From Apiospora phragmitis (Eukaryota > Ascomycota > Sordariomycetes > Amphisphaeriales > Apiosporaceae): DNA of 64,000 nt. Below are positions 15,301 to 25,305 of this stretch, piece by piece (position 1 is the first letter of the stretch; each line of letters begins with the position of its first letter). Where the stretch lies: assembly GCA_038363925.1 (NCBI GenBank), contig JAQQWL010000017.1, forward strand, positions 124,001 through 188,000. Direction: 5' to 3'. The position numbers were made by a program, and so were the translations under genes. A model generated the notes under the pieces. The model saw nothing but the letters and a program-made list of their open reading frames with translations, had not been told where the DNA came from and ran no database searches.

Positions 15301-16973
15301 ACAAGGTCTTGAGGCTATAGTATTGATTAAGAATAGAATGAATAATAATAGAGAAAATGAAAGTTAAACAAATAAGAGAGATTAGGAATAATTTTTTTAA
15401 ATTATCGGAAAAAGACCATAGTTCTTACTTAATATACGCATATATAGTAGGTTTATTTGAGGGTGATGGATTCTTTTCTATCTCAAAAAAAGGAAAATAT
15501 TTAACCTATGAATTAGGTATAGAATTATCAATTAGAGATGCGAAACTTATCTATAAATTAAAAAGTTTATTGGGTGTAGGGGTTGTAAGTATTAGAAAAA
15601 GAGGTGAGATAGAAATGATCTCTTTAAGAATTAGAGATAAAAATCATTTAAAAAATTTTATATTACCTATTTTCGATAAGTATCCTATGTTTTCTAATAA
15701 ACAATATGATTATTTAAGATTTAGAAATGCTTTACTTTCAGGTTTAATTTATTCTATTGATTTACCGGAGTATACTAGAAGTGACGAGCCTTTAAACAGC
15801 ATTGAATCAATTATTAGCGCCGATTATTTTCCTGCTTGATTAGTAGGATTTATAGAAGCTGAAGGTTGTTTTAGTGTTTATAAATTAAAGGACGATTATT
15901 CAGTAGCTAGCTTTGATATTAGTCAAACAGGCGGTGAAAATATAATATTGGCTATTCGTGAATATTTATCTTTCACTACTAGCGTATACTTAGATAAAAC
16001 AAATTGTTTTAAATTAAAAGTAACTAGTGTTAGATCAATAGAGAATATTGTAAAATTCTTAAATAAAGCACCTGTAAAATTACTAGGTTATAAAAAATTA
16101 AAATATTTATTATGAATAAAGCAATTACGTACAATCCCTAGATACTCTAAAAAGATAAATATACCTTCAAATTATTAAAAAAGATCAAGATATAGTCCGA
16201 TCAATAAAGAAATTTATTGAGTGTAGTGAGAGTGTTTAATTTATATTAAATACGTAGACTACCAACACACATGCTCTGTAAATAATGCAACTTTAAATAG
16301 ATTCTTTGCATTACACTTTGTATTACCTTTTGTCTTAGCGGCATTAGCTTTAATGCACTTAATAGCATTACACGATGCTGCAGGATCATCCAACCCATTA
16401 GGTGTTTCAGGTAATTACGATAGATTACCTTTTGCTCCTTACTTTTTATTTAAAGATTTAATTACTATATTTATGTTTATCTTTGTATTAAGTTTATTTG
16501 TATTCTTTATGCCTAATTACCTTGGGGATTCAGAGAATTATATCATGGCTAACCCTATGCAGACACCACCAGCGATTGTTCCAGAATGATACCTTCTTCC
16601 ATTCTACGCTATTTTAAGATCTATACCTAATAAATTATTAGGAGTTATAGCAATGTTCAGTGCTATATTAGTTATTATGTTGCTTCCTCTAACTGATCTA
16701 GGTAGATCAAAAGGTCTTCAATTTAGACCGTTGAGTAAAATAGCTTTCTTTGTATTTGTGGCTAATTTCTTAGTGTTAATGCAAATAGGAGCTAAACACG
16801 TTGAAACACCATTTATAGAATTTGGACAAATAAGTACAGTTTTATATTTTGCACATTTTTCTGTTATAGTACCTGGTATAAGTTTATTAGAAAATACTTT
16901 TACTGATTTATCTAATCAAAGTAAAGATGGAGGTTTAAATAAACAAATTAATATGGATTTAACGAAGCAATAA
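6377..16973 (+). CDS. cob: Apocytochrome b, six exons
   Basis: Complex III core subunit of the inner membrane. Exons, placed by requiring a U before each group I intron and a G at its end: 6377-6577, 8321-8512, 9746-9789, 11754-11806, 14097-14112 and 16274-16973. They join to 402 codons including the TAA stop. Landmarks in order are [11 protein letters not shown] at the start, [52 protein letters not shown] and [30 protein letters not shown] is complete in the last exon. Exon 5 is only 16 nt. A second, displaced copy of the 3' part lies downstream (18174-25225). Confidence 0.95.
6921..8294 (+). CDS. LAGLIDADG endonuclease, cob intron 1
   Basis: Motif helices are [11 protein letters not shown] (codons near 7125) and [11 protein letters not shown] (near 7540), the usual double-motif architecture. 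A C-terminal extension with a NUMOD-like element follows ([20 protein letters not shown]). The frame is open from 6921 but has no ATG before the first motif. Its N-terminus crosses a hairpin repeat (6958-7028). A different frame with an ATG (6812) runs into the same repeat, so the start may have been lost by a frameshift there. Confidence 0.75.
6958..7028 (+). repeat. Interspersed hairpin repeat (tacgtcctt...cttgccctcc family)
   Basis: The sequence tacgtccttagactttgttt at the left end also occurs at about 1981-2000. The right part (cctcctttatcc, then gcaagaaaaaacatag) recurs near 18786 and 26280. Here it sits inside an endonuclease reading frame. Confidence 0.7.
8513..9406 (+). CDS. GIY-YIG endonuclease, cob intron 2, in frame with exon 2
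   Basis: The frame runs on from cob exon 2 without a stop to TAA at 9404-9406. The catalytic domain carries SGIYMVIN and YYIGSAAT (the GIY and YIG strands), followed by [13 protein letters not shown], the ED/Y pair and LVPNYNIL. The C-terminus has NUMOD-type DNA-binding repeats ([29 protein letters not shown]). The first ATG is at about 8660, but the protein is probably made by proteolysis of an exon-intron fusion, as known for this class. Confidence 0.9.
8513..9745 (+). other. cob group I intron 2 (core 3' of ORF)
   Basis: The intron begins right after codon G of AFLG. The core lies after the ORF: gatatagccc at 9494-9503, and gcgacagactgggtcactgg near 9603. This wording differs from the other cob introns and suggests another group I subtype. 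Confidence 0.8.
10347..11684 (+). CDS. LAGLIDADG endonuclease, cob intron 3, with in-frame hairpin insert
   Basis: The first motif ([11 protein letters not shown]) follows shortly after ATG 10347; the frame is open further upstream, so the start is uncertain. The second motif is [11 protein letters not shown] near codon 195. Between them a GC-rich hairpin (10773-10826) is translated in frame as [18 protein letters not shown], which has no counterpart in related proteins. A C-terminal NUMOD-like segment ([18 protein letters not shown]) precedes TAA at 11682-11684. Apart from the insert the protein looks intact. Confidence 0.85.
10773..10826 (+). repeat. GC hairpin inserted in frame in an endonuclease gene
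   Basis: The element holds cagccctgcacacc facing ggtgtgcgcagggctg, a strong stem. A related but shuffled copy lies at 11836-11882 and another at 26343-26392. It keeps the host frame open. Confidence 0.8.
11807..13347 (+). CDS. Composite LAGLIDADG ORF: truncated LAGLIDADG_1 half joined to LAGLIDADG_2 enzyme
   Basis: The frame continues from cob exon 4 to TAA at 13345-13347. It opens with a GC hairpin (11836-11882) and a hydrophobic segment. A first motif follows ([13 protein letters not shown]), and the protein reaches the second motif as NWIVGFT at about 12484-12504. There it switches abruptly to unrelated sequence, then to a LAGLIDADG_2-type enzyme ([34 protein letters not shown]). The missing second half of the first enzyme lies at 13446-13748. 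One endonuclease gene has thus landed inside the LAGLIDADG motif of another. Confidence 0.8.
11836..11882 (+). repeat. GC hairpin element
   Basis: The sequence gccctgcgcgcacc facing ggtgcgctgggc forms a stem. It is translated in frame at the start of the intron 4 ORF and is related to 10773-10826. Confidence 0.7.
13446..13748 (+). pseudogene. Displaced second half of the cob intron 4 LAGLIDADG_1 enzyme
   Basis: The frame reads [20 protein letters not shown] and runs to FPEL and TAA at 13746-13748. This is exactly what should follow NWIVGFT at 12484-12504 in an uninterrupted enzyme (second LAGLIDADG helix, then the C-terminal domain with VQKVINFF and LIGLKYIQY). GC-rich hairpin sequence (gcgctgggccccgcgta) sits at the left border. 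Confidence 0.75.
14097..14112 (+). CDS. cob: cob exon 5, 16-nt micro-exon
   Basis: The 16 nt supply the last two bases of a Phe codon, IWGG, and two bases of the next Phe. Both neighbours are group I introns, and the exon is bounded by G on the left and U on the right, as group I splicing needs. Confidence 0.85.
14113..15367 (+). CDS. LAGLIDADG endonuclease/maturase, cob intron 5, fused to exon 5
   Basis: The frame continues from exon 5 ([16 protein letters not shown]...), through a hydrophobic segment and core-encoded residues (MTRRQSAG), to TAA at 15365-15367. Motifs are [11 protein letters not shown] (near 14476) and [11 protein letters not shown] (near 14970). This 5' leader is the classic form of cob intron maturases read from the exon. 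A short GC hairpin near 14363-14395 is read through in frame. Confidence 0.9.
15357..16178 (+). CDS. Second LAGLIDADG endonuclease in cob intron 5, overlapping the first
   Basis: It starts at ATG 15357, 11 nt inside the end of the previous ORF in another frame, and ends at TAA 16176-16178. Motifs are [11 protein letters not shown] and, after a TGA-Trp at 15837-15839, [11 protein letters not shown]. It is not a close relative of the first ORF, so the intron carries two endonucleases. The ATG-in-stop overlap suggests coupled translation. Confidence 0.85.
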
Positions 16974-16994
16974 GATTTTAATTTTGAATAATAA

Positions 16995-17969
16995 AAAATT
17001 CTATACTACAAGAGCGGATAATTGTGAAGCTTTACAAGCTTCAAATGTAAATTCTTGATTTATTACAGGATTTACCTTTATTTTTTTTTTGATAATTACG
17101 GAATTTGCTTTAGCAAATTCGTAGATTATTAAAAAAATTTAGCTGAGGGATCCTTTATTATTAAGTTGATGCAGAATAGTTCATATAAAACAGGTTGAAG
17201 AGTCGAATTCGTATTTTCTATTGGTCTACACGAAAAAGACTTATTGTTATTAAAAGCCATTCAAACATATTTTGGCGGAATAGGGAGTATAATTACTAAA
17301 AAAGATGGGGCTAGTGTCCAACTTAGAGTATCATCTAAAGAACAATTAAAGATAATCCTGGATCATTTTAGGAATTATCCCTTAATAAGTCAAAAATTGG
17401 CTGATTTTAATTTATTCGAGTCTGCGTTTAATATTTACATGGAAGGTGGACATCTTACAGTTCAAGGATTGCATGATATTATTAACATACGGGCTTCATT
17501 AAATGAAGGGCTATCAGATTCATTAAAAAAAGGTTTTCCTGATACAAACCCCGTGGTTAGACCTTTAGTAGAAAACGTCCTTATTCCTAATTCTAATTGA
17601 TTAGCAGGGTTCACTGCAGGTGAAGGTTGCTTTTTTGTTAATATAAGAAAGGCTACTACTAAAATAGGGTTTAGAGTAGATTTAGCTTTTATATTGACAC
17701 AACATCTTAGAGATATTGCTCTTATCGAAAATTTTGTTTCTTTTTTAGGTTGTGGTACAGTGATTAAACCAAGTAATAAAAATTGAGCCCAATATAGATG
17801 TGATAATTTCTCACATCTTTACACTAAGATTTTACCTTTATTTAAAAAACATCCAGTACTTGGAGTTAAATATTTGGACTTCGAGGATTGATCTAAAATA
17901 GCTGAATTAGTAGATAGAAAAGCACATCTTACAGAGGAAGGTTTAGCTACTATTAGAGAAATAAAATAA
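16995..17969 (+). pseudogene. LAGLIDADG gene downstream of cob, first motif destroyed by an AT hairpin
   Basis: The N-terminal lead (RFYTTRADNCEALQA...) reaches WFITGFT in one frame at about 17053-17073. An AT-rich hairpin of about 70 nt then replaces the middle of the motif. From 17142 another frame resumes with EGSFIIKLMQNSSYKTGW and continues through the second motif LAGFTAGEGCF (near 17600) to TAA at 17967-17969. It lies after the intact cob stop, not in an intron, where an endonuclease that carried a donor cob 3' end would sit. Confidence 0.8.
17074..17142 (+). repeat. AT hairpin element inserted in a LAGLIDADG motif
   Basis: The element has tttttttgataatt on the left, gaatttgctttagcaaattc in the middle and gattattaaaaaaatttag on the right. 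It resembles the AT arm of the elements at 22968 and 42410, which also end in aatttag. The host lost about five nt of motif codons. Confidence 0.7.
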
Positions 17970-24754: not shown

Positions 24755-24810
24755 TAACTTTAGTTAAACCTTATTTTATTAAAGAAATGTTATATAAATT
24801 GGGTTTATAA
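24754..24810 (+). pseudogene. LAGLIDADG_2 gene, piece 4 (C-terminus)
   Basis: It encodes ITLVKPYFIKEMLYKLGL and TAA. This matches the end of LAGLIDADG_2 proteins here ([15 protein letters not shown] at 13302, [13 protein letters not shown] at 32355). It is separated from piece 3 by GIY-YIG gene 3. Confidence 0.8.
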
Positions 24811-25305
24811 AGCTGTTACTCTTTTCTTACCTATATTAAAATGAGATAAGTTTCAATTTAGGTTTATATTTACTGATCTTTTACCATTCTACGCTATTTT
24901 AAGATCTATACCTAACAAATTATTAGGAGTTATAGCAATGTTTAGTGCTATCTTAATTATTATGTTATTACCTTTAACAGATTTAGGGAGATCAAAAGGT
25001 TTACAATTTAGACCGTTAAGTAAAATAGCTTTCTTTGTATTTGTGGCTAATTTCTTAGTGTTAATGCAAATAGGAGCTAAACACGTTGAAACACCATTTA
25101 TAGAATTTGGACAAATAAGTACAGCATTATACTTTGCACATTTTGCATTTATAGTTCCTGTTATAAGTTTAATAGAAAATACTCTTGTGGATATAAATAT
25201 GAAAATTTTCCCACTGAAAAATTAGCTTTGAGCAATCGTACACTTGAAAAATGTAATCCTAATTTAAATTATAAAACAACAACTCTCTTAGCTAATTTAG
25301 ATTTA

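Follow-up and report, generated by a model that had tools for sequence, protein, structure and literature searches.

We analyzed the cob gene in a 64,000-nucleotide stretch of Apiospora phragmitis DNA (the window; positions 124001-188000 of a contig of 224,601 bp; the whole genome has 19 contigs and 52.67 Mb), which gene content and genetic code show to be fungal mitochondrial DNA (mtDNA). The cob core (6377-16517) is followed here by two 3′ ends of the gene, an upstream intron-free one (A) and a downstream intron-split one (B). All features given below lie on the plus strand and, unless contig positions are stated, are numbered within the window. The exons at 6377-6577, 8321-8512, 9746-9789, 11754-11806 and 14097-14112, with introns after coding nucleotides 201, 393, 437, 490 and 506, lead to exon 6, which starts at 16274 and whose core part runs to codon 250 (AAT, ending at 16517). 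The frame of exon 6 passes unbroken into A (16518-16973, codons 251-401, no intron), so that the exons through 16274-16973 join into a single open frame of 401 codons. A brings its own TAA stop, and such an in-frame continuation is what C-terminal replacement by mobile open reading frames (ORFs) produces. An earlier note on this DNA had described cob as doubled from the motif GDSENYI onward with a continuous upstream copy, and its coordinates hold.

The second 3′ end begins at codon 252 and is made of three in-phase pieces that encode LGDSENYI...KN*: 18174-18199 (LGDSENYI), 20310-20350 (14 residues, one residue missing) and 24876-25225, the native cob 3′ exon with a TAG stop. Between them two group I introns are stranded at sites cob-779 (18200-20309) and cob-823 (20351-24875), that is, after coding nucleotides 779 and 823 when the missing codon is counted. 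As is the rule for group I introns, the exon before each of them ends in T and the intron itself in G, and both keep a catalytic core recognized by Rfam (18208-18571, 74.0 bits, and 20327-20607, 75.6 bits, respectively), so the pieces of B could still splice to one another. The cob-779 intron contains a LAGLIDADG ORF (18929-19975) and is homologous to a cob intron of L022, one of ten fungal comparison loci (L020-L029), among which L022 and L023 are contigs from IMG/VR. The cob-823 intron contains a GIY-YIG ORF (23699-24754, 7.5e-12) and further broken ORFs, and parts of it match L020-L023 in blastn searches, which covered seven of the ten fungal loci. As to the missing residue, which belongs to TPPAI, three residues stand at this place in 120 of 120 listed homologues (PPA in 118, PAA in 2), these being the best 120 of 7,998 cob protein homologues; Apiospora, Pestalotiopsis, Annulohypoxylon and Dematophora are among the closest named relatives there, which makes a Sordariomycete near Xylariales a likelier source than the leotiomycete that gene order had suggested. 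The earlier note had also recognized the three in-phase pieces, the two group I introns and the lost residue, all of which we find again. Directly behind the stop of B lies an open frame of 235 amino acids (25228-25932), for which no Pfam match was found at E 0.01.

Core and B are separated by an insert of ∼1,656 bp (16517-18172) that comprises A, a remnant of a LAGLIDADG gene and a tRNA-Cys-like remnant; its edges are accurate to a base or two, and 16517 possibly still belongs to the core. An endonuclease ORF directly behind the new 3′ end is another feature of C-terminal replacement, yet this one is broken in two places, and the LAGLIDADG gene reported between the copies by the earlier note is therefore present but not intact. 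Its 5′ part (16963-17075) uses another frame than cob, overlaps the last cob codons and reaches the motif start ITGFT, with no ATG before the break. Within the first LAGLIDADG motif the frame is broken by a 66-bp insertion (17076-17141) that forms a hairpin (17070-17142, -19.1 kcal/mol with RNA parameters). Short inserted fragments with inverted repeats, some of them within LAGLIDADG regions, have been described in Annulohypoxylon stygium mtDNA (PMC6140425). The 3′ part (17133-17987) is open from 17133 and matches PF00961 (2.6e-51), and a late stop (17967-17969), placed after EIK and before RMNTGR, cuts off the last residues. The enzyme is of the LAGLIDADG_1 type with the intact protein P0121 as its best relative (78% identical); no relatives of P0121 were found in viral contigs.

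The right edge of the insert is formed by the tRNA-Cys-like remnant (about 18100-18172), which was not part of the earlier description. Over 80 nt it shares 78.8% identity with the native tRNA-Cys gene (25996-26067, anticodon loop TTGCAGA), located between cob and cox1. Acceptor and D arm are retained, the anticodon arm is altered with no GCA at the anticodon place, and the remnant is detected neither by ARAGORN nor by Rfam; the native gene itself scores 28.0 bits as an Rfam tRNA, just under the gathering score of 29. Location of trnC between cob and cox1 is seen also in L021 (ARAGORN), and in L022 and L023 its position is given by similarity only, as ARAGORN detects no tRNA there. Within the insert the cob 3′ end is followed by the endonuclease and then by trnC, in agreement with the native arrangement cob-trnC-cox1, and the tRNA end abuts B, of which the native sequence begins at 18173/18174. 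A third sequence resembling a tRNA lies outside the window (contig 201396-201499), with D arm, T arm and 3′ flank in common with trnC and a longer middle.

An insertion-free relative, which the earlier note had proposed to look for, was found in L022. Its positions 4360-4876 match window 16007-16516 and its positions 4880-5494 match window 18173-18772 (blastn), so that 3 nt in L022 stand opposite 1,656 bp of the window (16517-18172). Since contiguous L022 cob matches the window on both sides, the insert can be delimited to about these positions. The junction in L022 reads ATG CCT AAC GTT TTA GGA GAT; in the window the left side reads ATG CCT AAT TAC CTT GGG GAT and the right side ...ATAATCT TTA GGT GAT, where the T after ATAATC can be assigned to either side. 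In the stretch examined L022 has a single cob 3′ end, the intron-split one (codons 58-386 in pieces, then cox1), and this carries homologues of both B introns. Its cob-779 intron aligns with that of the window in two matches, one of 629 nt (79.7% identical) and one of 1,545 nt (83.8%) that extends slightly into the next exon and intron. A displaced native 3′ end and a relative free of the insertion, as known for C-terminal replacement, are thus both at hand, in B and in L022. The empty site, with the intron-split form as the sole cob 3′ end there, supports the view that B is the native (ancestral) end of cob and A the newcomer.

Comparison of the two ends points in the same direction. A and B are 91.6% identical over 309 nt (5e-125), far beyond chance, and a query of the genome itself returned two places, A and B, among the best candidates, which alone were scored. 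Differences between them are unevenly distributed. In the first 26 shared codons 15 differ, all synonymously (24.4% of nucleotides), and the 101 codons that follow contain 21 differing ones, 13 of them synonymous and 8 nonsynonymous; the share of 15 out of 36 differing codons in the first 26 has a permutation P-value of 0.00045. Usage of leucine codons (TTA versus other) is 31/7 in the core and 16/3 in B (P = 1.0), versus 4/9 in the first 71 codons of A (Fisher exact test against the core, P = 0.0014). Codons 251-259 of A (TAC CTT GGG GAT TCA GAG AAT TAT ATC) differ from those of L023 (TAC CTT GGA GAC CCA GAG AAC TAT GTA) at 6 of 27 nt and from those of L020, L021, L022, L024, L025, L026 and L029 at 10-14, L027 and L028 being left out of these counts as out of register. 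Codons 252-259 of B, in contrast, show 3-6 differences in 24 nt from those seven and 10 from L023. A and L023 have in common the unusual codons TAC CTT GGR GAY. Both also have Tyr at codon 251. Of the 120 listed homologues 8 have this residue, Annulohypoxylon stygium and Dematophora necatrix among them, and 101 have Val. In A. stygium the spacer between cob and cox1 measures 2,998-8,039 bp in six isolates (PMC6140425).

L023, by its genes a fungal mtDNA and not a virus in spite of its IMG/VR source, has two cob 3′ ends as well (6808-10442; 63% and 74% identical to the window protein). Its cob lacks an intron at 779. The first 3′ end is the divergent one (63%) and follows an interruption at 823 that contains parts of the window cob-823 intron; the second is without its start and precedes trnC and cox1. 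Behind the first one we found an endonuclease-like region of two overlapping frames, 36% and 30% identical to the cob-779 intron ORF, with one frame only reaching a Pfam LAGLIDADG_1 score, 18.5 bits, under the cut-off. A third link comes from P0124, a metagenome protein that reads as cob up to GDSENYV, continues into a decayed cob 3′ end (alignment score with cob 68; the best of 2,000 shuffles gave 48) and then into an endonuclease 55% identical to that of the insert. Among 120 listed relatives of the insert endonuclease P0124 alone has a strong cob match. In three genomes, thus, an endonuclease or its remains is associated with a cob 3′ end that is either additional or decayed.

Taken together, these arrangements make it probable, as judged from DNA sequence, that the cob 3′ end was replaced in an endonuclease-linked event of the Allomyces/Glomus kind, which bypassed two introns. 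In such an event the donor mtDNA would have carried a free-standing LAGLIDADG gene just behind the cob stop codon, and the endonuclease of the insert would have made a double-strand break in the recipient cob between codons 250 and 252. Repair would then have copied the intron-free, recoded 3′ end of the donor together with the endonuclease gene and the neighboring trnC, the far end of the copied stretch being joined directly to the cut end of the recipient. By this the recipient would gain an in-frame, intron-free and cut-proof 3′ end, since a recoded target would shield the new allele, and the native end with its introns cob-779 and cob-823 would be displaced ∼1.7 kb downstream, outside the gene. 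Later the endonuclease and the trnC copy may have decayed, B may have lost its codon and conversion may have equalized 106 bp of A and B. That tract (16734-16839 in A, identical to 25019-25124 in B, 8,285 bp apart) is probably a gene conversion tract; a run of 35 identical codons, as found here, was reached in none of 20,000 permutations. The tract is also a direct repeat, and a single recombination across it would delete both introns together with the endonuclease and the copy of trnC. Of what the earlier note had proposed, the arrival of a new cob 3′ end stands, given the empty site in L022 and the codons shared with L023, the action of the endonuclease being inferred only. That two introns left the active gene at a stroke agrees with the intron-free state of A, but the single step is less certain: L023 shares the start codons of A, has no intron at 779 and is still interrupted at 823, so A may have lost the cob-823 intron separately.

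Several observations weigh against this explanation. In codons 276-322 A differs from B by 11.3% of nucleotides and from eleven other sequences by 18.6-27.7%, the 35 codons after 322 show no difference between A and B, and the D arm of the trnC remnant is nearly that of the native gene; the donor may therefore have been a close relative or a member of the same lineage. Conversion with B can explain the closeness in the middle region, and a close donor can do so equally. In codons 358-384 the distance of A is 23.5% to B and 24.7-38.3% to the other sequences. A protein search for the donor with the tail of A (residues 184-232) gave three matches, none with an organism name. Since the endonuclease is now dead, its role is one of association. 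The region in L023 belongs to another LAGLIDADG group, so the same enzyme was not at work in the window and in L023, and the insert behind A has no blastn match in L022 or L023. Finally, in codons 252-381 A has three residues that are rare among 119 aligned homologues, all located between codons 365 and 378, and B has none in the same span.

Some of these points would fit unequal recombination within one lineage, between two variants of its mtDNA, with no endonuclease action and the endonuclease gene as a passenger. An intron-free variant joined at its trnC end to codon 251/252 of the other variant would give a tandem duplication of the cob 3′ end and trnC. The duplicated unit does consist of a cob 3′ end and trnC, arranged as in the native locus, with its junction at the last tRNA base, and the closeness of A to B in codons 276-322 agrees with it. 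Other gene pieces are also duplicated in the contig, and no endonuclease was recognized between the two nad3 3′ ends, though one of the insert family lies just upstream. On the other hand, a targeted site and not a random exchange is suggested by the start codons common to A and L023, by the link of endonuclease and cob in P0124 and by the second case in L023, and we regard such recombination as unlikely, though deserving attention. It is more difficult to place A and the endonuclease within an intron, with B as the expressed end, in the manner of introns that carry host-gene fragments. P0124 reads from cob into IRN, like the cob-779 intron of the window (a match of three residues only), before its decayed cob 3′ end and endonuclease, and B is free of rare residues. 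However, Rfam found no group I or group II intron core between the copies (16480-18260, E up to 10), so exon 6 cannot be spliced to B through an intron type that Rfam recognizes; moreover, exon 6 reads on into A in an open frame that has a stop of its own, and B is short of a residue kept in all listed homologues. We hold this arrangement to be highly improbable. With the lack of a detectable core and the missing residue of B weighed against the rare residues of A, A appears likely to be the translated end of cob.

The absence of both introns from A and the end of the insert at a tRNA 3′ end would also be expected if A were a spliced and reverse-transcribed copy of the native 3′ end that ended at a processed tRNA. 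A is, however, no copy of the spliced native end: its first 26 codons differ by 24.4% of nucleotides, its leucine usage is different, as is its tail, and all five upstream cob introns are retained. We give this origin very little credence. The earlier note had named as a finding against its proposal a related genome that has the downstream form as its sole cob 3′ end, with A a retro-processed version; a genome of the former kind exists (L022), but nothing suggests retro-processing of A. As for an assembly artefact that joined two mtDNA variants, the decay marks in the insert, the 106-bp identical tract and the comparable case in the independent contig L023 speak against it and make it barely conceivable.

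A duplicated cob 3′ end is also found in Endoconidiophora resinifera, a Sordariomycete. In all four strains cob is followed by three degenerate LAGLIDADG ORFs and, behind these, by a partial duplicate of its C-terminus (PMC6279837), so that a cob C-terminal duplicate behind such ORFs has already been reported. It is described there as a partial duplication and, in the sections of that report available to us, no introns in the duplicate, empty site, trnC or mechanism are named. C-terminal replacement by mobile endonuclease ORFs is known for atp6, atp9, cox2 and nad3 of Glomus sp. and, as cited in the same paper, for atp6 of Allomyces (PMC3630166). The order of core, incoming 3′ end, endonuclease ORF and displaced native 3′ end is shared with these cases (PMC3630166). 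Here, in contrast, the gene is cob, the displaced end bears two group I introns, the insert includes a trnC copy and the endonuclease is broken. Two features make it too strong to say, with the earlier note, that the locus is organized exactly as in the atp6-type invasion: the damage to the endonuclease and the continuation of the insert into a tRNA-Cys-like remnant. It should be noted that the Glomus hybrids were demonstrated at the messenger RNA level (PMC3630166), whereas the window case is seen at the DNA level.

In Tremella fuciformis, introns with host-gene duplication and partial replacement by foreign gene sequence, cob-i2 included, have been described, and loss of downstream elements was proposed (PMC7315562). 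PCR on complementary DNA (cDNA) placed cox1-i2 and nad3-i1 behind their genes and confirmed the nad4-i2 type, in which a host-gene fragment stands at the intron 5′ end (PMC7315562). The element there is modeled as an intron, whereas no intron core is detectable in the window insert. Alternative 3′ ends are known for atp6 and cox2 of Phlebia radiata and, as cited there, for rps3 of Ophiostoma novo-ulmi, with endonuclease domains between the copies as in our case (PMC4019555). These are other genes, however, and stranded introns are not described in the available part of that paper. Ciborinia camelliae has a 68-amino acid cob-like ORF elsewhere in its mtDNA. Together with E. resinifera and Tremella it makes up the cob duplicates in the portions of the comparison literature at hand (PMC4162613, PMC8260586, PMC8767329, PMC10512376, PMC3630166, PMC11404375, PMC6140425, PMC4019555, PMC7315562, PMC6279837). 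Four things go beyond the known cases: an insertion-free site in a relative, a pair of introns left stranded, a copy of trnC, and codons at the start of A that recur in a second genome with two cob 3′ ends.

If endonuclease-linked replacement is correct, loss of introns from a mitochondrial gene gains a DNA-level route that needs no reverse transcriptase, in which the intron-bearing end is replaced and left behind, and cob, a phylogeny marker, can be a mosaic. With an empty site and a second invaded genome at hand, direct tests become possible of target choice, of recoding as a source of immunity and of what becomes of stranded introns. A broader and rather doubtful possibility is that cob codon 251/252 may be a recurrent entry point for free-standing endonucleases of more than one group. 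Ends would be swapped there for recoded, cut-proof versions, the direct repeat of A and B would offer a path for en bloc intron loss without reverse transcription, and Tyr 251 would be the footprint of finished swaps.

Other genes of the contig also occur in extra pieces. The nad5 3′ end is present in three partial copies at 4150-5504 (a peptide of 23 letters and its relatives), with an apparent LAGLIDADG C-terminal fragment, recognized by eye, between the first and the second (about 4385-4500); these copies are probably further 3′-end replacements in a neighboring gene. Outside the window, the nad3 3′ end is found twice (contig 78644-78922 and 79694-79973; 269 of 280 nt identical). Its second copy is frame-shifted by one gap and the frame of the first has a long extension; the absence of a recognizable endonuclease between them was judged by eye, and the upstream LAGLIDADG stretch of the insert family lies at contig 77376-78004. 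Pieces of nad1 with flanks are found far from the gene (window 59018-60651), at contig 16264-17065 and 57288-57685, the 5′ part identical over 106 codons and the 3′ part 98% over 66. Pieces of nad2, cox1, cox2 and the nad5 5′ end also look duplicated (gene names by eye).

Between nad5 and cob a tRNA is predicted at 5640-5713 with anticodon TTA, which would read a stop codon; it is probably decayed or misread. Among the comparison loci, L024-L029 are contigs with an uninterrupted fungal-type cob, 75-85% identical to the query, within GTDB records of bacterial species, one of them the isolate record of Fictibacillus barbaricus CCM 4982. Contamination is the likely reason for their presence in bacterial records. 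Two related frames outside the window (contig 107322-108020 and 202651-203346; 57% over 234 amino acids) resemble class III aminotransferases by eye, and a similar aminotransferase gene has been reported in Annulohypoxylon stygium mtDNA (PMC6140425).

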